Assembly: GCA_015065445.1 (NCBI GenBank)
Contig: SVQF01000001.1
Span: 1-37,198 of the forward strand
DNA: 37,198 nucleotides
Direction: 5' to 3'
Source: Oscillospiraceae bacterium
Lineage (GTDB): Bacteria > Bacillota > Clostridia > Oscillospirales > Acutalibacteraceae
Position 1 is the stretch's first letter, and the number at the start of each line of letters is the position of its first letter. Of this stretch, positions 7,333 through 34,182 are shown one piece after another. Position numbers and translations under genes: made by a program. The notes beneath the pieces were generated by a model, which did no database searches, was not told the origin of the DNA, and saw only the letters and a list, made by a program, of their open reading frames with translations.

Positions 7333-7409
7333 GGCTTTATAGCTCAGTTGGCTAGAGCATGCGGTTCATACCCGCAGTGTCACTGGTTCGAATCCAGTTA
7401 AAGCCACCA
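7333..7409 (+). tRNA. tRNA-Met (CAT), elongator type
   Basis: GGCTTTA...TAAAGCC acceptor stem, anticodon loop TTCATAC, CTGGTTCGAATCCAG T-arm, encoded CCA. Confidence 0.95.
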
Positions 7410-7412
7410 AAT

Positions 7413-7487
7413 GGCCCGGTGGTCAAGAGGTTAAGACACCGCCCTTTCACGGCGGTAACACGGGTTCAATTCCCGTCCGGGTCACCA
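7413..7487 (+). tRNA. tRNA-Glu (TTC)
   Basis: GGCCCGG...CCGGGTC acceptor stem, anticodon stem CCGCC/GGCGG with loop CTTTCAC, CGGGTTCAATTCCCG T-arm, encoded CCA. Confidence 0.95.
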
Positions 7488-7586: not shown

Positions 7587-7682
7587 GTCGATACAAGTCG
7601 ATACAAACCCCGTACAAGACGACAAAATTGGGGTAGATTTGTGGGGTACTGGGGTACTAATTGGGGTACTAAATGGGGTACT
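7587..7682 (+). repeat. Short direct-repeat cluster near the presumptive ICE left end
   Basis: GTCGATACAA at 7587 and 7597. GGGGTAG at 7630, then GGGGTACT at 7643, 7651, 7663 and 7675. Confidence 0.7.
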
Positions 7683-7770
7683 AATTTTAACTAAATAATC
7701 TTTACATAAGGCAGTCTTATTTGATGAAAGAATAGGACTGCCTTTTTCTATTTTAAGGAGGAAATTTAAT

Positions 7771-8710: not shown

Positions 8711-8875
8711 AAAAAAGCGTACAGCAGAACTGTACGCAAAAAACGCAAAGCTCAACTGTCGCCAAACACTTTACAAACTACAGACAAATAGTATGCAAAA
8801 AAGAGCCTGCATTTTTATCATAAGATAAAAACGCATACTAAAAGTCTGTAAATTCAATTTATAAAGTATTTGGCA
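8711..8875 (-). ncRNA. Candidate structured RNA / 5' leader ending in an intrinsic terminator, upstream of the SLOG gene
   Basis: Minus-strand arms GCCAAATACTTTA (8874-8862) / TAAAGTGTTTGGC (8773-8761); TACAGAC/GTCTGTA; TAGTATGC/GCATACTA; inner hairpin GTTTTTATC-TTAT-GATAAAAAT. Terminator GCGTACAG-TTCTG-CTGTACGC-TTTTTT (8737-8711). A promoter places the start at about 8875. Confidence 0.65.
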
Positions 8876-8881
8876 TTTCCT

Positions 8882-8910
8882 ATTGTAACATTTGAACCTT
8901 GAATAGTCAA
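8882..8910 (-). promoter_or_regulatory. Promoter for the structured RNA / SLOG leader
   Basis: Minus strand TTGACT (8910-8905), N17, TACAAT (8887-8882). Confidence 0.75.
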
Positions 8911-9863: not shown

Positions 9864-10691
9864 ATGTCTAATTGTAAGGTTATTACCATAAGCAACCAGA
9901 AAGGCGGTGTCGGTAAAACCACCACAACGCTCAATCTCGGTGCCGGACTTGCTTTGCAAGGTAAACGGGTGCTTTTAATTGACGCAGATCCACAGGGCGA
10001 CTTAACAACGAGTCTTGGATATACCGATAATGATGATTTAAGCATCACATTGGCAAACAAGCTCGTTGATATTATGAATGATAATTGTTCAAATGCTCTT
10101 GACGGAATACTGCATCACAAAGAAGGCTTTGACCTTTTACCCTCAAATATTGAATTGTCATCTGTTGAAATGAGTTTGTTCAATGCCTTGAGCAGAGAAA
10201 GCATAATGAAAGAGTATATAAATAGTATTAAAAACAACTATGAATATATCCTTATTGACAATATGCCCTCTCTTGGTATTCTGACGCTCAATTCTCTTGT
10301 GGCTGCTGATTCGGTTATTATTCCGATTCAGGCTCAGTATTTACCTACAAAGGGTATGACGCAGCTTCTCTCTACTATTAACAAAGTGAGAAGAAGCCTT
10401 AATCCGAACTTAAAGATTGACGGGTTGCTTATGACTCTTGTTGACGGCAGAACTAATTTATCAAGGAATACCATTATGGCGATACACCGTGCATACGGAG
10501 GAACTATTAATGTATTCAGGGCGACCATCCCTGTTGGTGTGAGAGCTGCCGAAACAAGTTCAGTTGGAGAGAGCATTTTCAGTTACGATAAGAACTGTAA
10601 TGTCGCAAAGGCGTATGCCGAACTTTCAAAGGAGGTGGTAAGCCTTGGCTCAAAGAAAAGGTCAGAGCTTCAATTTGGAGCCGTTAGATGA
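9864..10691 (+). CDS. ParA/Soj-family partition ATPase
   Basis: [24 protein letters not shown] deviant Walker [42 protein letters not shown]. Confidence 0.95.
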
Positions 10692-11577
10692 TTTCTTTAA
10701 AACGGACGAAGAACGCAAGGAGGACAAGTTATCAAAAATAAGGGATATTCCTATTGATATGATTGATGATTTTCCCGACCACCCGTTCAAGGTTCGTGAT
10801 GACGAGGATATGCAAAACCTTGTTGAAAGCATCAGAGAGCGTGGCGTTATTACTCCTGCGACTGTTCGCAAAAAGGAAGACGGCAGATATGAAATGATTT
10901 CAGGACATAGGCGAATGAGAGCCTGTTCGCTGCTCGGTATGGACACACTTCGTTGTGAGGTTGTTGAACTCAGCAGAGATGAGGCTACAGTCCTTATGGT
11001 TGAAAGTAATTTTCAAAGGTCTGAAATACTCCCAAGCGAAAAAGCCTTTGCCTACAAAATGAGGCTTGAAGCGATGAATCATCAGGGAAAAGCAACTTCT
11101 GCCCCAGTGGGGCAAAAGTTATATTCAAGAGAAATGCTGTCGCAGGAATCGGGCGAAAGTCATTCCCAAATCCAACGATATATCCGCTTGACATACCTTG
11201 TTCCCGAATTGCTTGAATTTGTTGACGAGGGCAGGATTAAAATGCGACCTGCTGTTGAACTCTCATACCTTGACGAAGATGCTCAAAGGGATATTGTTGA
11301 AGAAATTGACCTCAATGATTGTACTCCTTCACACGCTCAAACAATCAAAATGCGAAGGTTCTTTGAAGAAGGCAAACTTGACACCGCTGTAATACAATCA
11401 ATTATGGAGGAGGAAAAACCTAATCAAAGGGATAAAATCGTTATTCGTGGCGACAAAGTAAAAAAGCTGTTGCCGCAAAATTTGAAAGTATCCGAGCGTG
11501 AGGAATATATCTGCAAAGCGCTTGAACACTACACAAAGTTTTTGATAAGGCAGCGTGAGGACAGGTCTGACCGCTAA
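10645..11577 (+). CDS. ParB/Spo0J-family partition protein
   Basis: [40 protein letters not shown], and a central HTH. Overlaps parA by 47 nt. Confidence 0.94.
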
Positions 11578-12393: not shown

Positions 12394-12411
12394 AAGTGAA
12401 TAACCGAACAG

Positions 12412-12441
12412 ACGGCACATCAGACGATGTGCTGTTTTTTA
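12412..12441 (+). terminator. Intrinsic terminator between the lipoprotein and adhesin genes
   Basis: ACGGCACATC-AGAC-GATGTGCTGT followed by TTTTT. Confidence 0.75.
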
Positions 12442-12464
12442 TTCTAATGAAAAGAGGTATTTTA

Positions 12465-15400
12465 ATGGCAAAAAAATCAAAAAAACTGATTGCGCTGTTT
12501 CTGGCAATTCTTACGATTTTGTCATCAACAGTAATTGGCTTAACTGCATTTGCAGCCACGAAAGAGGATGTGTATTTGATTAACATTCCTCGTGGCGATG
12601 ATCCCGTACAGTCAGGCTGGGGACACCCCTCTCTTGATTTTATGAATGGATGGGATGCATCAAGCGTTGATTTTACCACTGTTAAGGCTATGGGAGATTA
12701 TGAGGGTGATTGTTGCTATTGTATTGAGCCGGGCGTTGCCTTGTTTTCGGGCGATTCGCTTTCAAAGGAAGCAGAAGGCTTTTGGGATAATTATCCCGAA
12801 AAATACAATAAGACAATTGATCCCGATACCATCAAGATCTTCATTGGTAGAATTATGCAGTACGGTTTTACCGGCAAAACAAGTATTGATTGGAAAACCA
12901 ACAATAAAAAAGGTGCTGATGAGCTTGCTCATTATATGGGAACTCAGCTTCTTATTTGGGAAGTAATCGTAGGTGAGCGTGATGAGAACTTCAATAAGAT
13001 TAACGCAAAAGATTACGGTAAGGACAATGTGAAGCAGCAAATTAAAAGCACAAATCCTCTGCGTGATGAAATCTTCGCATACTACAATTCTATTGAAGCA
13101 AAGGTTAAAAATCACACAGTTGCACCGAGCTTTATGGCTAAATCAAAGAATAAGGCACAAACCGTTGAACTCACTTGGAACGGCAGCGAATACACTGCTA
13201 CCCTGACTGATTCTAACAAAGTGCTTTCAAACTATGATTTTTCCGCTTCGGGCTTAACCTTCAGCAAAAGTGGCAACAAATTGACCATTACTGCAAGTAA
13301 AGCACCTTCAGACACAGTAACAATTACTGCTAACAAGGGTTCAAAGCGTAAAGGTGTTATCACTTGGACTGATGAAAAAATCGGTCCTATTACAGGTACC
13401 CGTCAGGACATTGTAACTTGGGGTGCAGAAGTTAACGATCCTGTAAAAGCATATCTTAATGTCAAGGTTTCCTACGGCTCTTGTAAAATCGTTAAGACCT
13501 CCGAAGATGGTGTGGTAAATAATATCAAGTTCCATATCAAAGGCGGTAACATTGATAAGGATGTTACCACAGGTTCAAACGGTTCTGTTCAGATTGACAA
13601 CCTTATTCCCGGCAAATACACTGTGACTGAATATGACATTAACCGTTATGAACCGCAGAGCGCAAAAACGGTAACGGTTCAGGCAGGTCAGACAGCTTCT
13701 GTATCATTTAGCAATGTTTTGAAACGTGGCGATTTACAGGTAACAAAGACCTCCGAAGACGGACTCGTTGAAGGAGTTAAATTCCATTTAACAGGCACTT
13801 CACTTTCGGGTAAAGCTGTAAACGAATACGCAACTACAAATTCAAGTGGCGTAGCGACCTTTAAGGATGTGCTTATCGGTACAGGATATACTCTCACAGA
13901 GGTTGATACGGCAATTCGTTATGTTATCCCTGATAGCCAAACTAAAAACATCGAGTGGAAGAAAGTAACCAATGCCAGTGTTAACAACAAGCTCAAGAAG
14001 TTCAAAGTTACGGTTACAAAGGAAGATAGTGAAACCAAGAACGCACAGGGCGATGCTTCCCTTGCAGGTGCAGTTTATGGTATCTATAAGGGCAGCACTC
14101 TTGTTGATACCTATACCACAGATGCAAACGGACAGTTTACCACAAAGTATTATGTCTGCGGAGATAATTGGTCGGTACAGGAAATCAGTCCGAGCGAGGG
14201 TTATCTGCTTGATGATACCAAGTATCATGTAGGCGCAGAAGCAAAGAACTTTACGATTGAGTATAACCCGCTTTCAAATACTGTTAAGGAAGATGTAATT
14301 AAGGGTAAAATCGCTATTATCAAGCACTCCGATGACGGCAGTACACAGATTGAAACTCCCGAACCCGAAGCAGAATTTCAGGTGTATCTAAAGAGCGCCG
14401 GTTCTTATGCAAATGCTAAAGCAAGCGAAAGAGATATCCTTGACTGCGATGAGGACGGCTTTGCCGAAACAAAGCTTCTGCCCTACGGCACATATACAGT
14501 GCATCAGACCAAGGGCAAAGAAGGTAATGAGTTTATGCCCGACTTTACGATGTATATCGCACAGGACGGCAAGACATATAAGTACCTTATCAACAATGCA
14601 CCCTTTGAGGCTTATCTCAAGATAACAAAGGTTGACAGAGAAACGGGTAAAACAATTCCCTATGCAGGCGCAGGCTTTGAAATCTACGATGCAAGCGGAA
14701 AGAAAATTTCACAGACCTTTACCTATCCAAAAAAGACCACGATTGATGTGTTCTACACAAGTGATGAGGGATATTTAATCACTCCAGAAAAGCTTGATTA
14801 CGGTAAGAACTACAAGCTTGTTGAGGTTCAGGCTCCGTATGGCTATGTGCTTGACAGTACACCTATTATCTTCAATGTCAGCAAGGAAAATGCTACAGAA
14901 GAAGATGCCCTTACTGTGATTAAAGTAAAGAGAGATAATATCGCACAGAAAGGCGTCATTAACATCACTAAGACAGGCGAAGTATTCGCTTGCGTTACTG
15001 CTGTCGGCGGTGCAACACTTGATGAAGACGGGAACGAAACCGTATTCCCGACAGTCTATACACCGCAGTATGAGGTGCAGAACCTTAAAAATGCGGTATT
15101 TGAAATCTATGCTGCTGAGGATATTGTTACTCCCGATGGCACAAGAAGGTATCAGCAGGGAGAAAAGGTTGACGAAATCACCACAGGCAACAACGGAACA
15201 GCCAAGTCAAAGGAACTGTATTTAGGCAAGTACACACTTGTTGAAAAGACAGCTCCCGACACTTTCTTTAATGCAAATAAGCAGTATGATGTTGAGCTTG
15301 TATACGCAGGACAGGATATACGGGTAACAAGTACGGCTCTTTCGGTATTTAATGAAAGACAGCGTGTTGAGGTAACGCTCACAAAAGCAATGCAACAGGA

Positions 15401-16922
15401 CGAAACCTTCGGTATCGGCATGAACGGCGAAATCAAATCAGTTCAGTTCGGTATTTATGCTGCCGAGGATGTAACAGCATCAGACGGCTCAAAAATCCCT
15501 GCGGATTCACTCGTTTGTATGGCAAACTGCGATGAAAACGGTAAGATTGCGTTCAGTGTTGACCTTCCTATCGGCTTTAAGTGGTATGCAAAGGAAATAG
15601 CTACGGATGAGCATTATATTTTATCAACCGACAAGCACGAATTTGATACCAAGTACCAGGGACAGGAAGTAGAAACCATAAACATTGATTTCGGTAAAGA
15701 TGAACCTATTGAAAACAAACTGATTTACGGTTCGGTTAAGGGATATAAGTTTGACAGAGAAACCGAGAAAGCAATTAAGGGCGCAACCTTCGGCTTATTT
15801 AGGAATGACGAAGTTAAGTTCAACGAGGACACAGCGATCCTCACTGCCGTAACAGATGAAAACGGAGTCTTTGAATTTAACAATGTGCCGTTCGAAAAAT
15901 GGGCAATCAGAGAGTTAAAGCCTGCTGACGGTTATCTTGAAAACATAGATATTCATCACTTTGATGTTGAAAGAGACCAAAAGGTAATTGAAATCAAAGT
16001 TGCGAACGACCTTATCCCCGAACTCAAGACAACCGCAACAGTAGACGGCGAAAAGACTATCTGTGCAACAGAAACCTTTACTCTCACTGATACGGTTGAG
16101 TATAAACACCTCGTACCCGGAACAGAGTATGTCGTAAAGGGCGTCCTTATGGATAAATCAACAGGAAAAGAACTTGTGATTAACGGAGAAATCTTCAAAT
16201 CCGAAGTAACCTTTATTCCTGATACTCCAAGCGGCTCGGTTGATGTAACCTTTACCTTTGACAGCAAGTATATCAAGGCTGAAACAGATATTGTAGTCTT
16301 TGAAAGCCTGTATAAAGATAGCAAAGAGCTTGCCGTTCACGCCGATATTGAGGATAAAGGACAGACGGTAACGGTTAAGGTGCCTGAAATTAAGACCTCT
16401 GCAAAAGCTGACGGCAAAAGTGAGGTTGAGGCAAGTAAGAAAATCACCATTGTTGATACCGTAACTTACAAGAACCTTACAGTAGGTAAGAAATATGTAA
16501 TCAGCGGTGAGCTTATGGATAAGGCAACGGGTAAACCGTACTTAATCAACGAAAAGCCGATAAGGGCAGAGGTGAAGTTTACACCGAAAAAGAGTGATGG
16601 AACAGTTGATGTAACATTTGTGTTTGACGGAGGCGGCATTACAACTGATACAGAGCTTGTCGTATTTGAAACCTTATATCGTGAAGGTGTTGAAATCGCT
16701 TCACACGCTGACCTCAAGGACAAAGGGCAGACCATTAAGATTACCGTACCTGAAAAGACTACTACCACAGTTGTTAAGAAAACGCCGAAAACAGGCGATG
16801 ACACAAACAATACTATTTGGTGGGTAGTGGCAGCTCTTTGTGCTGCAGGTGCAATCGGCGCAGGTGTAAGCATTTACAGAGGCAGAAAGAAAAAGGAGGA
16901 AGCTGACGATGACAGTGAGTAA
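12465..16922 (+). CDS. Cell-wall-anchored adhesin: thioester domain, Cna-B/SpaA repeats, VaFE (T-Q ester-bond) repeats, sortase signal
   Basis: Signal peptide MAKKSKKLIALFLAILTILSSTVIGLTAFA; CYCIEPG plus TQLLIWEV; repeated Cna-B-like segments; two repeats ending VVFESLY..HADIEDKGQTV / VVFETLY..HADLKDKGQTI; C-terminal TPKTGD, TM, basic tail. ATG at 12465 with upstream AAAAGAGG. Confidence 0.92.
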   Translation: MAKKSKKLIALFLAILTILSSTVIGLTAFAATKEDVYLINIPRGDDPVQSGWGHPSLDFMNGWDASSVDFTTVKAMGDYEGDCCYCIEPGVALFSGDSLSKEAEGFWDNYPEKYNKTIDPDTIKIFIGRIMQYGFTGKTSIDWKTNNKKGADELAHYMGTQLLIWEVIVGERDENFNKINAKDYGKDNVKQQIKSTNPLRDEIFAYYNSIEAKVKNHTVAPSFMAKSKNKAQTVELTWNGSEYTATLTDSNKVLSNYDFSASGLTFSKSGNKLTITASKAPSDTVTITANKGSKRKGVITWTDEKIGPITGTRQDIVTWGAEVNDPVKAYLNVKVSYGSCKIVKTSEDGVVNNIKFHIKGGNIDKDVTTGSNGSVQIDNLIPGKYTVTEYDINRYEPQSAKTVTVQAGQTASVSFSNVLKRGDLQVTKTSEDGLVEGVKFHLTGTSLSGKAVNEYATTNSSGVATFKDVLIGTGYTLTEVDTAIRYVIPDSQTKNIEWKKVTNASVNNKLKKFKVTVTKEDSETKNAQGDASLAGAVYGIYKGSTLVDTYTTDANGQFTTKYYVCGDNWSVQEISPSEGYLLDDTKYHVGAEAKNFTIEYNPLSNTVKEDVIKGKIAIIKHSDDGSTQIETPEPEAEFQVYLKSAGSYANAKASERDILDCDEDGFAETKLLPYGTYTVHQTKGKEGNEFMPDFTMYIAQDGKTYKYLINNAPFEAYLKITKVDRETGKTIPYAGAGFEIYDASGKKISQTFTYPKKTTIDVFYTSDEGYLITPEKLDYGKNYKLVEVQAPYGYVLDSTPIIFNVSKENATEEDALTVIKVKRDNIAQKGVINITKTGEVFACVTAVGGATLDEDGNETVFPTVYTPQYEVQNLKNAVFEIYAAEDIVTPDGTRRYQQGEKVDEITTGNNGTAKSKELYLGKYTLVEKTAPDTFFNANKQYDVELVYAGQDIRVTSTALSVFNERQRVEVTLTKAMQQDETFGIGMNGEIKSVQFGIYAAEDVTASDGSKIPADSLVCMANCDENGKIAFSVDLPIGFKWYAKEIATDEHYILSTDKHEFDTKYQGQEVETINIDFGKDEPIENKLIYGSVKGYKFDRETEKAIKGATFGLFRNDEVKFNEDTAILTAVTDENGVFEFNNVPFEKWAIRELKPADGYLENIDIHHFDVERDQKVIEIKVANDLIPELKTTATVDGEKTICATETFTLTDTVEYKHLVPGTEYVVKGVLMDKSTGKELVINGEIFKSEVTFIPDTPSGSVDVTFTFDSKYIKAETDIVVFESLYKDSKELAVHADIEDKGQTVTVKVPEIKTSAKADGKSEVEASKKITIVDTVTYKNLTVGKKYVISGELMDKATGKPYLINEKPIRAEVKFTPKKSDGTVDVTFVFDGGGITTDTELVVFETLYREGVEIASHADLKDKGQTIKITVPEKTTTTVVKKTPKTGDDTNNTIWWVVAALCAAGAIGAGVSIYRGRKKKEEADDDSE

Positions 16923-18793: not shown

Positions 18794-19725
18794 TGACGGA
18801 ATATACACTTACACCTATGACTAAAGTGGAAAACCTTTATTCTTACCGTCAAAGTCAGCAAATATCTATGCAAACAGGATATTACGGCTATTTGCACGGC
18901 GACTTTGGCAAGGACGGAAAGTATTTTAATTCAACTTTTGAACAGTTCAGCGGTGCTCCCCTCCGTGAGCATTTTGAAACCGAGCGAGATAATCTGCTTG
19001 ATTTTCTTGAAAAAGAGATATTGCGTGATCTGCACGCTATGACAAAATACTGTGATAATCACGAAGAAGCAGCTTTTAAGGGTGCTTTCGGAAAAGATTA
19101 TGGCTTCCGTATTGATTCCGGTAACCAAACATTTCTTTTGGTAATGCACCCTCGTAATGTAGCCGATTATGCAGTTCATCTGTATTCATACGATAAGCAC
19201 TTACTTGACGAACATATCAAAAGAGCCGAAAAAGGTATTCGCTTTATTAATTCCAATTATGAGCCTCTTTTTAATATTGAGGACGGAGACGGAATTATGA
19301 TTAGGTATCCCGACGGAGATACCTCTATAAGAGCCTGCCGATATATAGACGATTACCATACTCAAATCGGCAACAGTATATATCATATATGCGAATTTGC
19401 GGAGATTACAGAGAAAAACGGTGCCACAGTTATTCCGTATCGCAATTCGCTTCCTGAAAAGTGTTATGTGTATGTAGATACCCGTGAGGCTTTTGGTATT
19501 GTGACCAAAGGTAAAGACGGGTTTGAACTTTGTGCAGAAGCAAAATTCCCCGATGGAAAACGCAATTTTGAATATGCTGATAAGCTCAATGAAGAACTCG
19601 GCATTACAAAAGCACAATCGGAAGCAATGACAATGGCAAGCATGATGGGTTGGGCAGACAAGCTTGCAGACCCCCGCACCTACGAACCAAAACAAAAGAC
19701 TGACTATGACAGAGGAGGCAGATAA
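18793..19725 (+). CDS. Conserved ICE protein with C-terminal domain common in Tn1549-like elements
   Basis: C-terminus SLPEKCYVYVDTREAFGIVTKGKDGFELC...KLNEELGITKAQSEAMTMASMMGW follows a recurrent ICE pattern (recalled, not searched). Confidence 0.7.
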   Translation: MTEYTLTPMTKVENLYSYRQSQQISMQTGYYGYLHGDFGKDGKYFNSTFEQFSGAPLREHFETERDNLLDFLEKEILRDLHAMTKYCDNHEEAAFKGAFGKDYGFRIDSGNQTFLLVMHPRNVADYAVHLYSYDKHLLDEHIKRAEKGIRFINSNYEPLFNIEDGDGIMIRYPDGDTSIRACRYIDDYHTQIGNSIYHICEFAEITEKNGATVIPYRNSLPEKCYVYVDTREAFGIVTKGKDGFELCAEAKFPDGKRNFEYADKLNEELGITKAQSEAMTMASMMGWADKLADPRTYEPKQKTDYDRGGR

Positions 19726-22700
19726 TGAGAAAATATGATTTTATCAGAGATTTATTTGATGAAAAATCCAAAGAAATTGTGCGCTCCCCTGACGCATGGC
19801 AGCACTTTTTAACTTCTGCTTGCAGGAATTACCGTTTGCGTTTTGATGAACAGGTACTTGTCTATGCACAAAGACCTGACGCAACGGCTGTTCTTGAGAT
19901 TGAAAAGTGGAACAGAAACTTTGGGCGCTGGGTAAACAGAAATGCAAAAGGCATTGCTGTCTTTATATCCCCCGACAGAGAAAAGCAAAGGCTTAAATAC
20001 TACTTTGATATTTCTGATACCCACGAGAGCAGAAATGCAAGATCTGTTCCTATATGGAACTTTAAGAGAGAATACTCAGAAGCAGTTATTGAAACACTTG
20101 AAGCAACCTTCGGCGAGCTTGAAAAGAAAGACGATATTGTTGATGCTGTTTTTTCTGCGGCGAAAAATGCTGCCTATGATAATTTACAGGACTATTTACC
20201 CGACCTTCTTGACGGTAAAAGGGACAGTTTTTTAGAGGAACTTGACGAAAGTGCAACAGAAACTTTTTACAGAAGAACGGTTGAAAACAGCATTGCGTTT
20301 ATGCTTCTTTCAAGGCTTGGTTATGATGCGACAGAGTTTTTTGAAAGAGAAGATTTTGCCGATGTTGTAAACTTTAACACGCCCGATACTTTGAGTGCAT
20401 TAGGGCTTGCAACAAGCGAAATCAGCGAAATGGCTCTTAACGAAGTATCCCGAACAATACTTTCACTTGAAAGAGAAAATCGCATAATTGAAAAAAATAA
20501 CGATGATAAATATACTGGGATTGTAATAAAAACCGAAAGGAGTAATGACTATGAGAGAGATAACCTACCATCAGGAAGGCAATTATCAGATACCGAACTT
20601 AGTGCTTCCGGTGAGGAACGACCTTCAGCTCGGACGGTATTCGGAGCTTCGCAGGAAGTTTCTGAAGGAACACCACAGAGTGAAGTACACGAGCCTTCTG
20701 ACACAATGCCGTCTGGACGAGCATTTAGCAGAGATACAGACGAGAGCAACCGAGATGAGAGAGAATCTTATCAAAGAAATGGCAGCGAAGGAAGGACTGA
20801 CGGAGGAACTGAAAGCGAGCGATATGATGACTTGGGTTCAGGGAATGAACAACCTTCGCAACAGAGTGGAGGAAATAGTCCTGAGCGAAGTGATTTATCA
20901 GTAACAGAAACAGAACCCGAATTACCTGCATTTACGGATGAAAGCAAAATTCTGTATATGCTTCAAAATCCTAAAAATGATTTAACACATCGCAAGGAAT
21001 TTGCAGTTCAAAGGTGGAGCGAGCTTAAAAGCATAGACGAAAAGGGCAGATATGTCCCTATCCTGTATGCAGGCAAGTGGGGGGAATTAGAAATTGACGG
21101 TGAAACCGTCGGCTACAAACACGATAAAGAGGGACTTCTACTGTACGAGGGCACTTACAAGCAGCGTACAAAGGAGTCTCTTTTTTCTTGGAATTTAGTG
21201 GCAGAAATCATTGACGGCTTAATTAAGTCCGGTGAATACTACAAGGAGCCCGAAAAGGTTGAAACAACACCGCAGTATTCACTCTTTGATATGCCCGACT
21301 TGCCCGCAGAACAAGATACGGAACAAGTATCATTCTTTACCGATTTCGGCATTTCACAGCAGATTATTGATGAGGCGCTATGTCTTGGTTCTAACGAGGT
21401 AAACAGCACTCTTGATATTGCTATGACTTTTCGTAGGGACAGAGGGACAAAGTATAATGAAATATGGCTCAAAAATCACTACGGAACAAATGGTGCCGGC
21501 TTCTTCTTTGAGGGCGAAAAGGTATCTGTTTGGTACGACAAAGACGGCTTCAATATTGCAAAGGGCGATACGGCAAAAAGGTCATCTGCAACGCATTTAT
21601 CTTGGGAACAGGTTGCAAAGCGTATTCGTGAACTGCTTGAACTTGGCAGATATATGCCACAGTATCAGCTTGATAAGGTTGACGACCATGAATTAACCGT
21701 AGTAGCCGATAGGATAGTTACCTTTTATCGTGATGCCGACAAGGAAGAAGGTGTCTCCTTTTTCCCCTCTCTTGATAAGGCATTGGCAGATAAACACGGC
21801 TATCCCGACCAAGTAGAAATTGTAAAAGGTTTACTTGCTAACCCCGAAACCTTTATTGAACTCACTAAGGAATATGACGAGTTTATGGATAACCGCAGAA
21901 AAGGCAATATTTATGGGCTTTACAGATATGCTTATCAGTATTCGCCGGAATATATTCACGAGGTTATTGAGGGTATGTCAATGGAGCCTGTTGCTTTCAA
22001 AGCACAAAGCGGTTATAACCCTGAACGAAAGTATTTCATTACCGAAGATGAAATTAACAGGCTTATTCGTGGACACTCCTCGTTGAGCGAAGCAAAATAC
22101 CGTATATATACTTTCTTTGTTAATAACTCAGATTTGCAGGATAGAGCAAAGATGATAAAAAATGAATACGGTATAGGAGGTTACGGAGGCGGTAATGACC
22201 ACAGCAACTATGATGGCAAGGGTTTATCCTTCAGTCACGGAAGCGGTCTTGAACCTTATGCAAAGGTTGAGTTAAAGTGGACTGATGTTGCAAGGCGTAT
22301 TGACCGAATGATTAAGGCTAACGAGTATTTCTATCCTGATGAAATCGTAAGGATACCCGAAATTGAACGGGAACATATTGCAAGAGACCTTACAAGTTTC
22401 TTTATGGCATTACCCAACGAATATGCAAAGCCTTATAACGAAAGCACACCCGCTTATGATATTCAAAAGGTCATAGAAGCGCAGCTTGTTGATCCACAGG
22501 CTCTTGAGAGCATTGAAAAAATGATGGATGATGCAATTTCACTGATGAACGAAGAAGATTATGTTGATTATCCATTACGCAAAGAACAGTATGAAACCTT
22601 TATTTCATTCAAAAATGGCGAATATCATCCGTATGCAATACCTACTCCGTCTAAACCTTTGCCAAGACCGAATAAGTTTTCTCAACCTGCTAAAAGCACA

Positions 22701-25700
22701 AACGAAGAACAGGACAAAGAACTTGAAGCAGTATATAACCTGCTTGATGCCTGCAAGATTGACGATATGGTCGTTGATTTTGAAAATGGCGAAATTGTGG
22801 CAACAGATACCGAAAGCGAGTGGCGTGGTGCTGAATTGTACCGTTTTTTGCTTGATGATGTTCTTGCTTTTGATGAAAACGGAGAGCTTGCAGACGGTTA
22901 CGATATTGATGAAAAAATCATCAATACAATTAAGGAGTACGCTAAACATTATGATGTAGAGCCTACACTTGTACCGCAGAAGCCTCGCAGCGTTGTATCA
23001 CAGTATAACATACTTAAAAGGGATTACCCCGATACCATTGTTTTTATGCGTGTAGGCGATTTCTACGAAACCTTTGCGGATGATGCTAAAACCGTTGCGA
23101 AGGAACTTGACCTTGTATTGACAGGTCGTAACACAGGCGTTGAGGGAGAGCGTACTCCTATGTGTGGCGTTCCGAGACACGCTGTTGATGCGTATATCAG
23201 CCGTTTGGTCGCGAATGGGTATAAGGTGGCTCTTGCTGAAAACGAAGAACTGCAACGCTCTGTTGTTCCTTCTAATGAGCCTGATAATTCATTGGATAGA
23301 GCAAAAGAGTTGATAACCGAATATTCGCTTGAGGAATTTGAGCACGAACCCGATTTCAGCGATATGTCAAATGTTGAACTCGCATATACCGAAACAGAGG
23401 ATGGCAAGCATACAATTCAAGTAAGTGCCGACCTTGTTAATTTCAATCTCAACACTTATGTTGATGGCAGCCTTTTCAAGCAACATAAGGCTGATTCGCT
23501 TGATATACTCATCAAAACTCAGCTTACAGGATTAAACTTTAACGATTTAGTTTATCTTGATGAGGAAGAGTCAAAGCGTATTGAAACCGAAAAAGAAAAT
23601 ACAGTTGAAACTCTTGCCGAAAGACTTGTTGCATTTGCAAAGGACACCGATTTTTATGATTATATGGATAACCTTGAAATCGGTGAAACCGATGCTGACA
23701 CCATATCAAAACTGACCGAGCAATTACAAAGCAAGATGTTTTGTGAAGGTGCAATCAGTTATATCACAGACTATATCGCTGAGATAAGCATTAACGAACA
23801 AGAAAAGCTGCAGACATTTGATACTCCTGATATGACAAGAGTTGAAAACCTGCAAACGCTTCTTGATGATTTAAGTGCATATACCGAAACTCTTGCAGAT
23901 ATAGTTAAGGTTGATGCACCGGACAACTCAGATTTGCTTGGCGAGGAACTAACTATTGATGGAAGGCACTTTGTTGTAGATAGTGTTGACGGCGATTATG
24001 TTTCAATGAGGGATAATACCTTTGAAGAAGGCACAGGCTTCCCGATATTCCGCAGAGAACGAATTGAGGATATAAAGCCTTATCTTACAGAGAAAGAAGA
24101 ACCCATAGTTGAGATACTCCCTGCACCGCCTAAACAGCCGAGAACAAGGGTGCAAACCTTTGATTTACACCCCGAAATTCCTATGGAATTTCGTCACGAC
24201 TATAACTTTGCTGAAAAGGATATTGAAAGTGTAGGCAAAAAAGAACGCTTCCGTAGAAATATAGAAGCAATAAGAGTCATTAAAGAATGCGAATTTGATA
24301 ACAGGTTTGCTACCCCTGAAGAACAGGAAATATTGTCGCAATATGTCGGTTGGGGCGGTATTCCCGAAGCGTTTGACGAAAACAACAGCGCTTGGGCAGA
24401 CGAATACAAAGAACTTGTGGTTGCACTTTCTCCCGAAGAATACGAAGCCGCAAGAGAAAGCACCTTGACTGCATTTTACACACCGCAGCCTGTTATATCT
24501 GCGATATATAAAGCACTCGGAAATATGGGCTTTAAGCAAGGCAATATCCTTGAGCCTTCGTGTGGTATCGGTAATTTTATCGGTATGTTACCTAACGAAA
24601 TGAAGGATAGCAAGATGTACGGCATTGAGCTTGATAGCATTTCAGCGCAGATTGCTCAACAGTTATACCAGACCTCATCAGTTATGGCTTCGCCTTTTGA
24701 AAAAGCAAACTTGCCTGATTCATTTTTTGATGCAGTTGTAGGCAATGTTCCTTTCGGCGACTTTAAGGTTATGGATAAGCGCTATGACAAACATAATTTC
24801 CTTATTCACGACTATTTCTTTGCCAAATCGCTTGATAAGCTTCGTGCGGGCGGTGTTATGCTGCTTGTTACCTCAAAGGGTACAATGGATAAAGAAAACT
24901 CCTCTTTCAGAAGGTATATTGCTCAAAGAGCAGACCTGCTCGGTGCAATAAGACTTCCGAATGATACCTTTAAGGGTAACGCAGGAACAGAGGTTGTATC
25001 TGATATTCTTGTCCTTCAAAAGCGTGACAGAATAATTCAGACCGAGCCTGATTGGACTCATATTGATACGACTGAGGACGGTATTAGGATGAACAAATAC
25101 TTTGTTGATAATCCCGATATGGTTCTCGGAAATATGGTTATGAAATCAGGAAGGTTCGGTATGGAAAGCACTTGTGAGCCTTATGAGGATAGCGATTTAT
25201 CCGAACTTCTTAATGAAGCAATATCAAACATTCACGGTGAGATTACCGCTTATGAGGTTGATGAAGAAATTGAGGAAGAAGATAATTCTATTCCGGCTGA
25301 TCCAAACGTGCGTAACTTTTCTTTCACTATCGTTGACGGAGAGGTATATTTCAGAGAAAATTCCGTAATGGTTCCCCGTCAGGTTTCTGCAACGGCAAAG
25401 AACAGAATTAAGGGTATGGTTGAAATACGGGAATCGGTAAGAAGGCTTATTGACCTTGAAATCAATGACTATCCTGATGCTGATATACAAGCCGAACAAG
25501 AAAACCTTAATTTCCTTTATGATAAGTTTACTGCAAAATACGGTGTTATCAATTCAAGAGCAAACATCTCTGCTTTTTCGGATGACAGTTCGTTCCCGCT
25601 TATTTCTGCACTTGAAGTGCTTGACGATGAAGGCAATCTTGAGCGAAAAGCGGATATGTTCACAAAGCGAACTATCAAACCTCATACGCCTGTTACAAGC

Positions 25701-28700
25701 GTTGACACACCAATGGAGGCGCTTGCCGTTTCTATGGGCGAAAGGGCAAAGGTTGATATGGAATATATGTGTGAACTCTCACACAAAAGCAAGGAAGAAA
25801 TCGTTTCTGCCCTTGCCGGTGTTATATTCCGTAATCCCTTATCTGATGAGGAGGAATACCTCCCTGCAGATGAATATTTATCGGGCAATGTTCGTGAGAA
25901 ACTGAAAATTGCAAAGGAATTTGCAGAAAACAATCCCGAATATCAAATCAATGTTGAAGCGTTAGAAAAGGTGCAGCCGAAGGATTTAACAGCAAGTGAA
26001 ATTGATGTCAGACTCGGCGCAACTTGGCTTCCGATAGAAGATGTTCAGGACTTTATGTATAACCTGCTCGAAACTCCGTATTATGCAAGGTGGAATGTAA
26101 AGATTCACTTTTCAGAGTACACAGGAGAGTGGAATGTTGAAGGCAAATCGTATGACAGAATGAATGTCAAGGCGAATAACGCATACGGCACAAGCCGTGT
26201 TAATGCCTACAAGATTATTGAGGAAACCTTAAACCTTAAGGATGTTCGTGTCTTTGATTATGTTGAGGATGACGAAGGTAAGAGAAAGCCTGTTCTTAAC
26301 AAAAAGGAAACCGCTATTGCACAGTCCAAACAGGAACTTATTAAGCAAGCGTTTCAGGATTGGATATGGAGCGATCCTGAAAGAAGGACAAGACTTTGCA
26401 AGATATACAATGAAAGGTTCAATTCTATCAGACCTCGTGAGTATGACGGAAGCAACATTACCTTTTCAGGAATGAACCCCGAAATATCACTCAGAGAACA
26501 TCAAAAAAACGCTGTTGCACATATCCTTTACGGCGGTAATACACTCCTTGCGCACGCAGTAGGCGCAGGTAAAACCTACGAAATGGTTGCTGCAGCACAG
26601 GAAAGCAAAAGACTTGGTTTATGCTCCAAGTCTTTATTTGTTGTCCCGAATCACTTAACAGAGCAATGGGCAAACGAATATTTACAGCTTTATCCTTCAG
26701 CCAATATTCTTGTGGCAACTAAAAAAGATTTTACCACCAAAAACCGAAAGCGATTTTGCGGCAGAATTGCTACGGGTGATTATGATGCAATTATCATAGG
26801 ACACTCTCAATTTGAGAAAATCCCAATGAGCGTTGACAGACAAATTCAAATACTTGAAGACCAGCGTGATGAGGTTCTTGAGGGTATTGCCGAGCTGAAA
26901 TATAACAGAGGCGATAAGTTCTCTATCAAGCAGCTTGAACGCACTAAAAAGAGCATTGATAACAAGTTGCAGAAACTTAATGACCAAAGCCGTAAGGATG
27001 ATGTTGTTACCTTTGAGGAACTCGGTGTTGACAGAATATTCATTGACGAAAGCCACTACTACAAGAACCTTTTCTTATTTACAAAAATGAGAAATGTAGG
27101 CGGTATTGCACAAACCGAAGCACAGAAGTCAAGCGACCTGTTTATGAAATGCAGATACCTTGATGAAATCACAGGCGGCAGAGGTACAGTTTTCGCAACG
27201 GGAACTCCAATATCGAACTCTATGGTTGAGTTATATACTATTCAGCGTTATCTGCAATATGAAACCTTACGCAAACATCATTTGCAGCATTTTGATGCTT
27301 GGGCTTCCACCTTCGGCGAAACAATTACAGCCATAGAGCTGACACCCGAAGGAAGCGGATATAGAGCAAAAACCCGTTTTGCGAGGTTCTATAACCTGCC
27401 CGAACTGATGTCAATGTTCAAAGAGGTTGCAGACATTCAGACTGCGGATATGCTCAATCTCCCCGTACCGAAAGCGAACTATCACAATGTTTCTGTTAAG
27501 CCTTCCGAAATACAGGCTGATATGGTTGAAACACTGTCCGAAAGAGCAGATAAGGTGCGAAATGGAGTGGTTGATTCCACCGTTGATAATATGCTTCTCA
27601 TTACCAATGATGGCAGAAAGTTAGCGCTTGACCAAAGGCTCCTTAATGAGATGCTCCCCGACAATGAAAACAGCAAAGTCAATGCCTGCATTGGTAACAT
27701 TTTCAAAATTTGGGAGGATACAAAAGATAAGAAATCGGCACAGCTTGTGTTCTGCGACTTATCAACTCCTAAAGGAGAAGGACATTTTTCCGTTTACAAT
27801 GACATTCGTAAGAAGCTCATAGAAAGAGGTGTTCCAGAAGAAGAAATCCGCTTTATTCACGAAGCCGATACAGAGGCTAAAAAACAGGATTTGTTCAAAA
27901 AAACACGAAGCGGAGATGTACGAATACTGCTCGGTTCAACACAGAAAATGGGCGCAGGCACCAATGTTCAGGACAGGCTAATTGCATTGCACGACCTTGA
28001 CTGTCCTTGGCGACCTTCCGATTTGGAACAGCGTTCAGGCAGAATTATCCGTCAAGGTAATTCAAATCCCGAAGTAGAAATATTCCGTTATGTAACGGAG
28101 CAGACCTTTGATGCCTATCTGTATCAGCTTGTTGAGGGCAAGCAGAAATTTGCGAGTCAGATTATGACCTCAAAATCTCCTGTTCGCTCGGCTGAGGATA
28201 TTGATGAAACTGCATTGTCTTATGCAGAAATCAAAATGCTTGCAACGGGTAATCCGTATATCAAGGAAAAGATGGATTTGGATATTCAGGTTCAGAAACT
28301 GCGACTTCTCAAATCCAACTTCCTTTCAGAGAGATACGCTCTTGAGGATAAAATCCTTAAAGACTATCCCGCTGAAATTGCTCGTTTGACATCAAAAGTT
28401 GAGGGCTTAAAGGTTGATATTGCAACTGCAAAGGCACACCCAAAAACAGTTGCAGATGAGTTTACGGGTATGATTGTAAACGGTGTTGAATATGTGGATA
28501 AGGCAAAAGCCGGTGAAGCAATAATCAATGTTTGCAAGACACTCCCCGACTCACAGACTTATCCTCTCGGCGAATACAGAGGCTTCCAAATGGAAGTGTA
28601 TTATGAGCCGTTTTCGCATCAGCACAGAGTTAATATTCGTGGTGCGATTTCACATCAAGGTATTCTCGGTACCGACGCTCTCGGTAACATTACCCGTATT

Positions 28701-28964
28701 GATAATGTGATTGACGGGTTTGAAGAAATGCTGACTAAAACAGAGGGACTTCTTGAAAATGCAAAAAAGCAGCTTGAACTATCAAAAGAGCAGCTTGAAA
28801 AGCCGTTTGCAAAAGAGGATGAACTAAAGCAAAAGGAAGCAAGACTTGCAGAACTTAACGCCCTTCTCAATGTTGATAAACGAGAAAACGAAATCGTTGA
28901 TGAAGCACCCGATGAGGGCAATTCAGCCCCTGCTCGTTCAGATGTTGACAGAGATGAAAGATAG
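19725..28964 (+). CDS. 3079-aa polyvalent ICE protein: ArdC-N-like, disordered linker, repeated LPD-like modules, MutS-I-like, N6-MTase-like, SNF2-family helicase
   Basis: [112 protein letters not shown] and [54 protein letters not shown]. Confidence 0.93.
   Translation: [3079 protein letters not shown]
20551..20904 (+). CDS. tnpV: TnpV-like transposon-encoded protein, nested out of frame in the 3079-aa CDS
   Basis: MREITYHQEGNYQIPNLVLP...LGRYSELRRKFLKEHHRVKYTSLLTQCRLDEHLAEIQ...MMTWVQGMNNLRNRVEEIVLSEVIYQ matches the remembered TnpV pattern. RBS GAAAGGAG is 8 nt before the ATG at 20551. Confidence 0.8.
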   Translation: MREITYHQEGNYQIPNLVLPVRNDLQLGRYSELRRKFLKEHHRVKYTSLLTQCRLDEHLAEIQTRATEMRENLIKEMAAKEGLTEELKASDMMTWVQGMNNLRNRVEEIVLSEVIYQ

Positions 28965-28980: not shown

Positions 28981-29325
28981 ATGACAAATTCAGACGCACT
29001 GTATTGGAAAATGCAAAACGAATATAACGCATATCTTAATGACATCAAAACTAAATCGCCGAAAGAAATCGTTGAGGCTGCCTATGAAATCACATATAAG
29101 CAGGACATTCTGTATATATTTGAGGATAATGACTGCCCGCTTTCCGAAGATGAAATCAAAGCCTTGTTAAGTAAAAAGCAACCGCTTGAAACACTTTATC
29201 AGGGCTGGCTTGATACCGATGTTTCTGTTATGGAGGATTTGAGATACAGCGTTAAAGAAACTGCCGAAAGCTTTGCAAAAGAAATAGCAAAAAGCAAAAC
29301 GGTTATTGACAAGGAAAGCAGATAG
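28981..29325 (+). CDS. DUF3848 domain protein
   Basis: Short ORF with YWKMQNEYNAYLNDIKTKSPKEIVEAAYEI...KQDIL; position after the helicase and pattern fit DUF3848. Confidence 0.7.
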   Translation: MTNSDALYWKMQNEYNAYLNDIKTKSPKEIVEAAYEITYKQDILYIFEDNDCPLSEDEIKALLSKKQPLETLYQGWLDTDVSVMEDLRYSVKETAESFAKEIAKSKTVIDKESR

Positions 29326-29327
29326 TT

Positions 29328-30293
29328 ATGGTATATATCAGTCCGAAAACGCTTAATAGAGCAAAGGATATGGACTTGCTTACCTATCTGCAAACCTACG
29401 AACCAGATGAGCTTGTTTCTCTTGGACAGGACACCTACTGCACCCGTTCACACGATAGTTTGAAGTTATCAAATGGTATGTGGATGTGGTGGAGCAGAGG
29501 CTTCGGCGGACGGTCTGCACTTGACTATTTAATCAAAGTAAAAGGGCTTACCTTATACGACGCAGTTGAGAGGATTATAGGTCAAGCAGACATTCCCCCG
29601 CCTGATAAGTATGTTGCACCAAAAACCGAGAAAAAGGAATTGCATTTACCAATTAAATCCACCAATAACGACACCGTAAAACAGTATTTGCTGAGTCGTG
29701 GAATTGATGAAGAAATCATTGATTATTGCTTTGATAATAACCTAATTTATGAGGACTTAAATCATCATAATTGTGTATTTGTCGGCTATGACGAAAACGG
29801 TAAAGCAAGACACGCAGCATACCGAGCAACGAACGGACATAGATTACTCGGTGATTACGGAGGCTCAGACAAACAGTATTCTTTCCGGTTGGTAAATAAT
29901 TCGAACAGTAATGCGGTTCATATATTTGAGAGCGCAATAGATTTACTGTCCTATGCAACCTTGATAAAAGACTATGAAAAGGACTTCAAAAACTACAATT
30001 TGCTATCTCTATCAGGCGTATATCAGCCGAACAAGAAGATTGAAAAAAGCAAAATTCCCGTTGCTCTTACCAAATATCTTGAAACATATCCTGATACTAA
30101 AATCATAACCTTGCATTTTGATAATGACAAGGCAGGCAGACTTGCAGCAAAAGCATTACCAATAGTGTTGCCGAACAGATATAAAGTCATTGATAAACCG
30201 CCCTTGACGGGTAAGGATGTCAATGACTTTTTGTGTATCAAAAAAGGTATATTTAAGGAACCGAGAGAGCAACAATTAAATGATGAAAGGTAG
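29328..30293 (+). CDS. CHC2-type zinc finger / Toprim (DUF3991) primase-like protein
   Basis: DLLTYLQTYEPDELVSLGQDTYCTRSHDSLKLSNGMWMWWSRGFGGRSALDYLIKVKGL, then Toprim-like VHIFESAIDLLSYATL and ITLHFDNDKAGRLAA. Confidence 0.88.
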   Translation: MVYISPKTLNRAKDMDLLTYLQTYEPDELVSLGQDTYCTRSHDSLKLSNGMWMWWSRGFGGRSALDYLIKVKGLTLYDAVERIIGQADIPPPDKYVAPKTEKKELHLPIKSTNNDTVKQYLLSRGIDEEIIDYCFDNNLIYEDLNHHNCVFVGYDENGKARHAAYRATNGHRLLGDYGGSDKQYSFRLVNNSNSNAVHIFESAIDLLSYATLIKDYEKDFKNYNLLSLSGVYQPNKKIEKSKIPVALTKYLETYPDTKIITLHFDNDKAGRLAAKALPIVLPNRYKVIDKPPLTGKDVNDFLCIKKGIFKEPREQQLNDER

Positions 30294-30299
30294 GACTTT

Positions 30300-30713
30300 A
30301 TGAGTATAGAAGTATTGATTGTTGAACCCGAAAAAAGACCATATATGAAAACAATCGGCGATGATTTAACATCGCTGCAGCAAGAGGTAGGCGGATGGAT
30401 TGAACAGTTTCCGCTTTCAGATGACTGTATGATTATATGTAACGAGGAAGGAAAGATAAACGGCTTGCCCCTTAACCGTGCTGTTTATGACAACAAAACG
30501 AAGGAAATGATTGATATTATTGCGGGCAAATTCTTTATCTGTTACGCACCGATTGAAAGCGAAAATTATCTTTCGCTTCCTAAAGACCTTCAGGAAAAAT
30601 TCACAAAACGATTTTGGAACCCTGAAAGATTTGGAAGAATAGGCAGTGAAATAGTAGCAATTCCGGTTCCGCCGATTAATCAAAGCAAAGCAAACGAAGT
30701 GCCTGAAAGATAA
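30300..30713 (+). CDS. DUF3846 domain protein
   Basis: LIVEPEKRPYMKTIGDDLTSLQQEVGGWIEQFPLSDDCMIICNEEGKINGLPLNRAV. Confidence 0.85.
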   Translation: MSIEVLIVEPEKRPYMKTIGDDLTSLQQEVGGWIEQFPLSDDCMIICNEEGKINGLPLNRAVYDNKTKEMIDIIAGKFFICYAPIESENYLSLPKDLQEKFTKRFWNPERFGRIGSEIVAIPVPPINQSKANEVPER

Positions 30714-30732
30714 ATACTTGAGGCAAACAAAA

Positions 30733-30758
30733 GGCCTAACGAGGAATCTCGTTAGGTC
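30733..30758. terminator. Bidirectional hairpin between convergent genes
   Basis: GGCCTAACGAG-GAAT-CTCGTTAGGTC with flanking A/T-rich tracts; the minus-strand CDS stop lies in the right arm. Confidence 0.7.
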
Positions 30759-31198
30759 ATATTTGTCTCAATTTCATCTTCCGAATTGCTCAAAAAACAA
30801 TCGTTTTCAAATAGATAATTGATGACTGTGTTATGTATCCAAGATGAAGCATTGACAATCATTTCTGCATAATCTGTTTTTACTGTTTTAACCCAGACAT
30901 ACTTTAGGTCAACATTTATTCTATCCGGCGTGATTATTAGGTCAAGCGAGTAGGATTTTTTTCGTTCGTGTTCTTTGGGTATAGGCTCAACAGCGAGTTG
31001 CATTTTGTACTCATTTTCGGCAGGAAATCCACGAGCAAACCATAGTAATTCGTATTCGTTTATTTTGTGAACAATCATTTCATCCTCATTATCAGAATGA
31101 TTTTTGAAGAAGGTTAGCAAAGAAGTCTCAAGAATTTCATAGTGAAATCCATTCATTTCTCTATTTAATTCCTTGAATTTGGCAAAGTCAATTTTCAT
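30752..31198 (-). CDS. Hypothetical protein (148 aa), second gene of a reverse-oriented cassette
   Basis: MKIDFAKFKELNREMNGFHYEILETSLLTFF...; ATG at 31198 overlaps the upstream stop as ATGAAAATTGA. Confidence 0.7.
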   Translation of the reverse strand: MKIDFAKFKELNREMNGFHYEILETSLLTFFKNHSDNEDEMIVHKINEYELLWFARGFPAENEYKMQLAVEPIPKEHERKKSYSLDLIITPDRINVDLKYVWVKTVKTDYAEMIVNASSWIHNTVINYLFENDCFLSNSEDEIETNMT

Positions 31199-31355
31199 AT
31201 ACAGCCTCCAGAGCAGATAATAATTCTTCGACGAAATCTGTATCCATTTCATCACTTGGCTTATCAAGTTCTTCATCAAGCATATCTCTAATCTCTGCTA
31301 TTGTAAATCTTTCGCTTTTTGAAGATAGTATTTCTTTTAGAGCTTCTTTAGTCAT
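31188..31355 (-). CDS. Hypothetical acidic small protein (55 aa), first gene of the cassette
   Basis: MTKEALKEILSSKSERFTIAEIRDMLDEELDKPSDEMDTDFVEELLSALEAVYEN, preceded by GAGGTGACC; below the ORF-track cutoff. Confidence 0.7.
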   Translation of the reverse strand: MTKEALKEILSSKSERFTIAEIRDMLDEELDKPSDEMDTDFVEELLSALEAVYEN

Positions 31356-31429
31356 AATTGGTCACCTCATTTATGTAGTAACCTAATTATAAAAAAGTAA
31401 CACAACTTTTTTTGAAAATACAACATAAG

Positions 31430-31466
31430 AGGCATAAATGCAGAAAAATCAGGCATAATTGCAGAA
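31430..31466. repeat. Tandem 16-bp operator-like repeats, 21-bp period
   Basis: AGGCATAAATGCAGAA (31430-31445) and AGGCATAATTGCAGAA (31451-31466), each with a GCA(T)..(A)TGC dyad. Confidence 0.7.
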
Positions 31467-31575
31467 CTTTTAATCAAATAAATATAACCTAAAACCATTT
31501 TTTAAGCAATATAATTTGCAAAAATGTATCAAAATAAGTACAAAAAAATCAATTTCAGACAGTTTTTATAGTGTC

Positions 31576-31690
31576 AGAAATGCCGATGTCATTTCTTAGC
31601 GAGCAGACCCTTTTTACTCCTATCGGGCAAAAACGGTAATAAGCTCGTTAGGGGTGACCCCTAATACCCCTTTGGTGGGAATACTTGCAG
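31576..31690 (+). other. Candidate oriT region upstream of mobC/relaxase
   Basis: Inverted repeats AGAAATG-N7-CATTTCT (31576-31596), TTAGCGAGC...GCTCGTTA (31596-31650) and TTAGGGGT-G-ACCCCTAA (31648-31664), immediately upstream of mobC. Confidence 0.55.
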
Positions 31691-31704
31691 AAAGGATATA
31701 GTCT

Positions 31705-32043
31705 ATGAAACACAACATAAAAAAGAACTTTTGGTTCAATGAAAAAGAGGCAGCAACTCTTAAAATGAAAGCAGAGATGTGTTGCCTTACCGAAGCAGGA
31801 CTAATAAGGATGCTTGTAATGGGTTTCAAGCCCAAAGAAGCACCGCCCAGAGAGTTCTACACAAGGGTTAACGAGATTAATATGATTGGTGTTAATCTTA
31901 AACAGCTTGTCGCTAAGGCTAACACTCTTGGCTTTACTGATGTTGACAGGTTAAAGGAAGTAATCAACCGTATAGATGAATTAGCCTTTGAACTCAAACG
32001 CCAATATGTTCAGCCCGAGAGGGACGATGAGTTTTGGCAGTAA
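31705..32043 (+). CDS. mobC: MobC-like relaxosome accessory protein
   Basis: RHH-like N-terminus (FWFNEKEAATLKMKAEMCCLTEAGLIRMLVMGF) and INMIGVNLKQLVAKANTLG; directly precedes the relaxase. Confidence 0.88.
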   Translation: MKHNIKKNFWFNEKEAATLKMKAEMCCLTEAGLIRMLVMGFKPKEAPPREFYTRVNEINMIGVNLKQLVAKANTLGFTDVDRLKEVINRIDELAFELKRQYVQPERDDEFWQ

Positions 32044-33407: not shown

Positions 33408-34179
33408 TGCTGCCGAACAGGTTGTCAGGTTATCACTTGAAGGCGTTGAGGTTGCAGCCAAAATATCAGGCGAAGCAACAAAGGAACTTATCGTTCTTTT
33501 AATCTCAGCGCTGAAGCAGGAACAGAAAACCAAAGGCAAAGCAAGACTTACCAATATGATTAAGTCCGGCAAAGAGTTAAAGGTTTTCCAAATAAGCAAC
33601 AAGGAACTTGAACAGTTTGTTAAAGAGGCAAAACGCTACGGTGTCCTTTATAGCGTTCTTCGTGATAAGAACAATAAAGACCCAAATGCAACCATTGACA
33701 TCATTGCTCGTTTGGATGATGCTTCTAAAATCCAAAGGATACAGGAGAAGCTGCAGCTTGCAACCGTTAAGGATAAGGCAGGTATTGTAACAGAAATTCA
33801 AAAGAGCAAGGATGAAAAGGAAACAAAGGAAAAGGTTAAACCTGAAAAGACACAGGGACAGCGTGATGCTGAACGCATCTTAGCAAGACCTATTAAGAAG
33901 GAGGAGAACCATCGTTCAAACCCCTCCGAGGCGAGGACGGAAAAATCCCCTCCGTCCGAGCGATCCTCAACTTCTACAAAAATGCTCACTGATGAGGGTA
34001 CTACCAAGAAAGACCGCCCTTCTGTAAGGGAAAAGTTAAAGAACTTTAAGGCACAGATTAATGAGCAGAACGAAATCAGCAGAGAAAAGGAAGTTGCCGA
34101 GAGAAAGGCTGAACCAAACCGTGAAACAAAACATACACAACCAAAGCGTAAGCGTGTCAAGAAAGAAAAGGAGAGATAA
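33391..34179 (+). CDS. PcfB family protein (DUF3801)
   Basis: SSDAAEQVVRLSLEGVEVAAKISGEATKELIVLLISALK...GKARLTNMIKSGKELKVFQI; Lys/Glu-rich tail. Confidence 0.88.
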   Translation: MNASSDAAEQVVRLSLEGVEVAAKISGEATKELIVLLISALKQEQKTKGKARLTNMIKSGKELKVFQISNKELEQFVKEAKRYGVLYSVLRDKNNKDPNATIDIIARLDDASKIQRIQEKLQLATVKDKAGIVTEIQKSKDEKETKEKVKPEKTQGQRDAERILARPIKKEENHRSNPSEARTEKSPPSERSSTSTKMLTDEGTTKKDRPSVREKLKNFKAQINEQNEISREKEVAERKAEPNRETKHTQPKRKRVKKEKER

Positions 34180-34182
34180 TTT

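Follow-up and report, generated by a model that had tools for sequence, protein, structure and literature searches.

In the preQ1-I, fluoride (crcB) and c-di-GMP-II riboswitches a leader pseudoknot competes with an antiterminator or a terminator, and a pseudoknot that overlaps the switch strand within a large conserved fold is a typical riboswitch trait. T-box leaders are terminator/antiterminator leaders of the Firmicutes. EAR and put antitermination RNAs are cis-acting structured RNAs that stand before terminators, and EAR RNA contains a pseudoknot. The HMP-PP (thiS) riboswitch has its aptamer built into the stem of the terminator (PMC6478431).

The window analyzed here is a stretch of 37,198 nt from an Oscillospiraceae bacterium (GenBank assembly GCA_015065445.1, contig SVQF01000001.1, positions 1 to 37,198). 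An initial annotation, made from the letters alone, had described a promoter-driven structured RNA of ~165 nt with its own terminator upstream of a SLOG-family gene. All of the features that it listed were located on the minus strand (Table 1). Between 8910 and 8711 the promoter TTGACT-17-TACAAT, with an extended TG, is followed by an RNA of 164 nt, the first hairpin base of which is G8874. The closing arms, the two helices above them and the 9-bp inner hairpin, which is apical, were recovered. The terminator with its U6 run was also present, and its distance from the SLOG ATG (8697-8695) was corrected from 14 to 13 nt. The window RNA folded with a minimum free energy of -66.5 kcal/mol, compared with -31.3 +/- 3.4 kcal/mol for 200 dinucleotide shuffles (z -10.4), none of which folded as well. 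It matched positions 1-170 of a covariance model of the family, R1, with 145.6 bits (E 5e-26).

Table 1. Coordinates of the RNA, its promoter and the following gene in the window
Feature	Position	Strand	Evidence or remark
-35 element TTGACT	8905..8910	-	sequence; TTGACT/TTGACA commonest among 211 copies
-10 element TACAAT with extended TG	8882..8887	-	expected start at G8874 or adjoining base
Whole RNA	8711..8874	-	fold energy and model R1
P1 5' arm GCCAAATACTTTA	8862..8874	-	covariation, e.g. GCCAAACA/UGUUUGGC to GCGACACA/UGUGUCGC
J1, A-rich internal loop with conserved AATA core	8851..8861	-	probable bend
P2 5' arm TACAGAC	8844..8850	-	fold; sequence and length variable
P3 5' arm TAGTATGC	8833..8840	-	double changes in 9/9 pairs (A3) and 10/10 (A7, helix 2)
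P4 hairpin TTTTTATC-TTAT-GATAAAAA	8812..8831	-	98.9% of cells paired (A7)
3' bulge TGCAGGCTCT, putative pseudoknot partner	8802..8811	-	covariation with switching strand
P3 3' arm GCATACTA	8789..8796	-	covariation
P2 3' arm GTCTGTA	8779..8785	-	fold
P1 3' arm TAAAGTGTTTGGC	8761..8773	-	covariation
Linker GACAG, P1 to switching strand	8756..8760	-	conserved
Switching strand GAGCTTTGCG	8744..8753	-	predicted partners: bulge (pseudoknot) or terminator 5' arm (antiterminator)
First U-run	8738..8743	-	4-7 U in 125 copies (set selected for at least 4)
Intrinsic terminator hairpin GCGTACAG-TTCTG-CTGTACGC	8717..8737	-	arms covary, z -18
Terminator U-run (T6)	8711..8716	-	sequence
SLOG-family gene (YpsA, PF06908), 159 aa	8218..8697	-	SD GGAG 8706-8703

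The RNA had not been recognised as a named class, and database searches agreed. At the gathering threshold of Rfam 15 the window and 20 diverse loci matched tRNA only, with no family for the RNA, and a permissive local search to E 5 returned sub-threshold matches only (best MIR6140, 23.8 of 140 bits). No description was found in a literature search and in motif-discovery papers, covering the main texts of mostly open-access articles, and an earlier unnamed listing is possible. The RNA family is large and is missing from the public RNA-family library searched.

A BLAST search of the source genome located two more full copies, preceding an acyltransferase-like gene and a lipoprotein gene, and model R1 located four copies in all, the fourth preceding a gene for a secreted-type protein. 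R1 matched 66/81 genomes of the genus, 96/298 of the order and 83/342 of the class, the last representing 53 of 204 genera. In an even sample of 300 genomes of the phylum, nearly all of the listed genomes belonging to other classes, it matched the query's own genome and 0 of the 299 others; R1 is therefore specific and the family appears to be confined to the class. By record title, pattern matches were mostly from Clostridia, Oscillospiraceae, Ruminococcaceae and Eubacterium of rumen and gut. The promoter-RNA-terminator unit reaches 34 copies in a congener (G097), several as tandem pairs or triples, and the joins that were read retain a promoter for the next copy. About a quarter of the sampled genomes of the class carry the RNA, some with 10-34 copies, and no catalogue searched lists it. 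A phage or plasmid element was considered and rejected: BLAST gave no match to the RNA in phages and plasmids, and a pattern search of IMG/VR returned 2 contigs only.

Across 211 copies, 88% of the promoters matched at least 9 of 12 consensus bases, compared with 3.8% of shuffles. In 182 of these copies the distance from the end of the -10 element to the first G was exactly 6 nt; in the window copy it is 7 nt. As a family feature the promoter is more than chance and forms one unit with the RNA. Riboswitches do not usually have a promoter locked to the RNA, and this counts against such a reading.

The RNA is co-oriented with the downstream gene and the spacing is fixed. An SD-preceded start codon lay within 60 nt past the terminator in 111/162 copies, mostly at 15-25 nt, compared with 69 of 810 random points in the same loci. 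Copies from other families had a start codon within 60 nt in 29/54 cases, and in 30 of the 216 copies of the two sets together none was found within 260 nt. A gap of 15-25 nt leaves almost no room for a promoter, so the gene is probably read by polymerase that passes the terminator.

Copy number, the long inverted repeat, tandem duplications and copies at contig ends are properties of a MITE or other mobile palindrome, and the initial annotation had named a hairpin scattered at unrelated loci as the outcome that would count against its reading. That origin is hardly credible given the fixed orientation and spacing relative to start codons, the fixed promoter spacing, the compensatory changes in helices and pseudoknot described below and the lack of phage or plasmid matches. 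A free-standing trans-acting small RNA, perhaps the partner of a SLOG effector, would explain a complete promoter-RNA-terminator unit with many copies and tandem arrays. It would not explain why start codons with an SD follow in the same orientation 15-25 nt on with almost no promoter space, why many unrelated genes lie downstream, or why the terminator appears specialised for opening, and it is considered very improbable.

Covariation among relatives, which had been proposed as a check, was present in the helices and in a pseudoknot. On 92 distinct rows the P1, P3, P4 and terminator helices had 96.9% of cells paired with double changes in 27/36 pairs (0/500 shuffles), and on 54 divergent copies, a set largely separate from the first, 98.0% of cells paired with double changes in 32/36 (0/500 shuffles); both alignments were fitted to the model and are biased towards it, while slid controls reached only 30-56%. 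In distant copies the near-invariant foot GCCAAACA/UGUUUGGC is replaced by GCGACACA/UGUGUCGC or GCUACACA/UGUGUAGC. Variation in P4 was found mainly in the loop-side pairs (A7). A conserved folded domain of aptamer type with covariation, as is looked for in a riboswitch, is present.

The conserved bulge 5'-YGCAU-GCUCU, located between P4 and P3 on the 3' strand of the hairpin, is complementary to 5'-GAGC-U-AUGCG just 3' of P1. This pairing is not part of model R1 and was tested by duplex energies against permuted partners. Bulges preferred their own strands with z -7.9 in 125 non-redundant copies and z -6.7 (0/5000 permutations) in the 54 divergent copies, a few of which (e.g. L193) belong to both sets; permutation leaves shared ancestry in, and bulge x terminator-arm controls with the same ancestry gave z -1.3/+1.8 in the first set and -2.1/-0.4 in the divergent set. 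Compensated bulge/strand variants were ACUC/GAGU (L185, L193 and L204), ACAU/AUGU (L028 and L189), UGCAC/GUGCA (L101) and GCUCCG/CGGAGC (L096 and L144). A predicted pseudoknot that joins the internal bulge to the strand 3' of the hairpin is thereby shown computationally. For it to close, the ~30-bp stem would have to bend, probably at J1, a demand that tells against the model. The pseudoknot became visible through comparison of copies and could not be revealed by one sequence; like the switching strand and the multicopy nature of the RNA, it is beyond what the single sequence available to the initial annotation could show.

The GAGC-U-AUGCG strand has a second complementary partner, the terminator 5' arm. 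With pseudoknots disallowed in the folding of the tail, 100/125 copies (80%) had a minimum-energy fold in which the strand displaced the terminator of the same copy, compared with 3.5% of 269 unrelated terminators of similar energy from the same loci and 4.2% with a shuffled strand. In the divergent set the strand beat the terminator in 27/54 copies, compared with 3%. Preference for the native terminator arm was absent from the first set (z -0.5) and modest in the divergent set (z -2.8), which may reflect the low variability of both partners. In L271 the strand CAAAGCG, the bulge GCUUU and the terminator arm CGCUUUG have changed together, and in L274 the strand CAAGAG faces the terminator arm CUCUUG. 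Duplex energies for the window copy were -10.9 for the pseudoknot, -7.7 for the antiterminator arm and -12.3 for the terminator hairpin, and the antiterminator-containing tail gave -17.3. A terminator between promoter and start codon, as required of an attenuator, is present, and a mutually exclusive antiterminator is supported by the predicted folds (native covariation is weak). With three mutually exclusive pairings predicted around a single strand, the RNA is laid out like a transcriptional riboswitch.

In the proposed mechanism polymerase would start at the built-in promoter and make the long P1-P4 hairpin, a step suggested by sequence and covariation. The bulge YGCAU-GCUC would then pair with the next-made strand GAGC-U-AUGCG, closing the pseudoknot as covariation indicates. 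While the pseudoknot is closed the strand would be kept from the terminator, which would form and leave the gene off. With the pseudoknot open, complementarity suggests that the strand would pair with the terminator 5' arm and block the terminator, and polymerase would read through into the gene 15-25 nt on; the direction of control is inferred. The first U-run, after the pseudoknot strand, could possibly serve a terminator built by the pseudoknot itself.

A processive antitermination element of the put/EAR/LoaP-target type, in which the folded RNA modifies polymerase so that the terminator is ignored, is improbable; a conserved cis RNA with a pseudoknot does stand before a terminator, and the first U-run could be a loading pause, but a terminator 5' arm specifically complementary to the switching strand would be needless in such a system. 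We conclude with good confidence, from comparative sequence evidence, that the RNA is likely a cis-acting transcription attenuator and most probably an orphan riboswitch. Of the two interpretations offered by the initial annotation, the terminator-controlled, riboswitch-like leader is strongly supported by covariation, the antiterminator, the co-oriented start codons and the small promoter space, and the free-standing RNA paired with a SLOG effector is not upheld. The pseudoknot/antiterminator model yields exact mutations and is hence directly testable.

The identity of the downstream gene in the window was borne out by a match to Pfam YpsA (PF06908, E 1.8e-21). Among 116 non-redundant downstream proteins only 2 matched YpsA, the window gene and its counterpart at L146, and many unrelated genes follow the RNA. 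A SLOG partnership is rejected on these tallies, SLOG not being a recurrent neighbour; the SLOG gene is incidental, one occasional member of the regulon. At L146:5628-6943, in another genome, a phosphoesterase-like gene, the RNA and a SLOG gene are arranged as in the window, the first gene being divergent from the others. BspA-type leucine-rich repeats were found in 10 of the 116 proteins, and others had zinc ribbons, CHAP domains, subtilases, M23 peptidases, ricin-type lectins or AMP-binding enzymes. Signal-like N-termini, called by a simple hydrophobicity rule, were present in 60/117 downstream proteins compared with 66/406 other ORFs of the same loci (p 2e-13). PADLOC returned scattered matches among the 116 proteins and no defence theme. 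The best reading of these neighbours is that the family would serve a regulon of many genes, among which those for surface and secreted proteins are over-represented.

In G097 (L219-L238) paralogues of a ~91-aa protein (MTEKTYSYDIEGKDLHEFF...), which matches no Pfam family, follow about ten of the 34 RNA copies; this is an expanded RNA-plus-small-protein family. A higher-GC subgroup of the RNA (L084, L096, L125, L129, L144 and L156) precedes short related proteins of about 50-80 aa, for example MVNYEELYHLMVHASEDALAALETGN..., and that of L084 has no Pfam match.

The window also contains conjugative-element genes at 28981-35067, encoding Toprim/DUF3991 (29328-30293), a MobA/VirD2 relaxase (32034-33407), DUF3801 (33391-34179) and an ArdC N-terminal domain (34183-35067), together with ParA/ParB (9864-11577) and tRNA-Met/tRNA-Glu genes (7333-7487). 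It looks like an integrative conjugative element adjoining the tRNA genes, and the SLOG gene and its RNA may therefore be cargo of the element. Repeated GGGGTACT units directly after the tRNA-Glu gene (7630-7690) are possibly part of an attachment site. Positions 12396-16922 encode a surface protein of 1508 aa that combines thioester, SpaA and T-Q ester-bond domains. The open frame at 19725-28964 encodes 3079 aa, and within its first 1592 residues, the part scanned, a MutS domain I lies at about residue 1100 (E 7.9e-28).

If the attenuator is a riboswitch, the regulon under its control would comprise adhesin-like (BspA), secreted, lipoprotein and accessory genes of gut and rumen Clostridia, and a new intracellular signal may come to light. 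Ligand sensing is inferred. We favour a small metabolite or second messenger as the signal, at somewhat better than even chances, and a protein or other factor ranks next as a distinctly less probable one. An RNA-binding protein, a trans RNA or the speed of polymerase could govern the pseudoknot of the same attenuator; the 116 downstream proteins share no common pathway pointing to a ligand, and a protein might bind at the conserved bulge and J1, but the pseudoknot overlapping the switch strand within a large conserved fold speaks for a riboswitch, and we regard such control as rather unlikely. c-di-GMP was considered as the signal and is unlikely, as no GGDEF domain was detected in 46 of the 66 carrier genomes of the genus (the genomes are incomplete), including that of the window and G015, which has 13 copies. 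We suggest tentatively, at a little under even chances, an unrecognised riboswitch class for a widespread signalling compound other than c-di-GMP; as a portable cassette of promoter plus switch, it would serve across the Clostridia to coordinate surface, secreted and accessory genes.

The pseudoknot competition of the preQ1-I, fluoride and c-di-GMP-II riboswitches has its likeness here, but the present RNA has a longer hairpin domain and no Rfam match, comes with a built-in promoter at a fixed distance and reaches 34 copies per genome. It resembles c-di-GMP riboswitches in being multi-copy in Clostridia with diverse targets that include surface proteins, and differs from them in lacking an Rfam match and in that most carrier genomes of the genus are without a detected GGDEF domain. 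T-box leaders have a comparable terminator/antiterminator arrangement, whereas the RNA had no T-box match in Rfam and no specifier or T-box sequence was recognised in it. It shares with EAR and put RNAs a cis-acting structured domain ahead of a terminator; here, however, the switch strand of the RNA has its complement in the terminator arm itself. As in the HMP-PP (thiS) riboswitch (PMC6478431), aptamer and terminator functions would overlap in few bases, but the fold is different, and here the pseudoknot strand is predicted to toggle between two partners.
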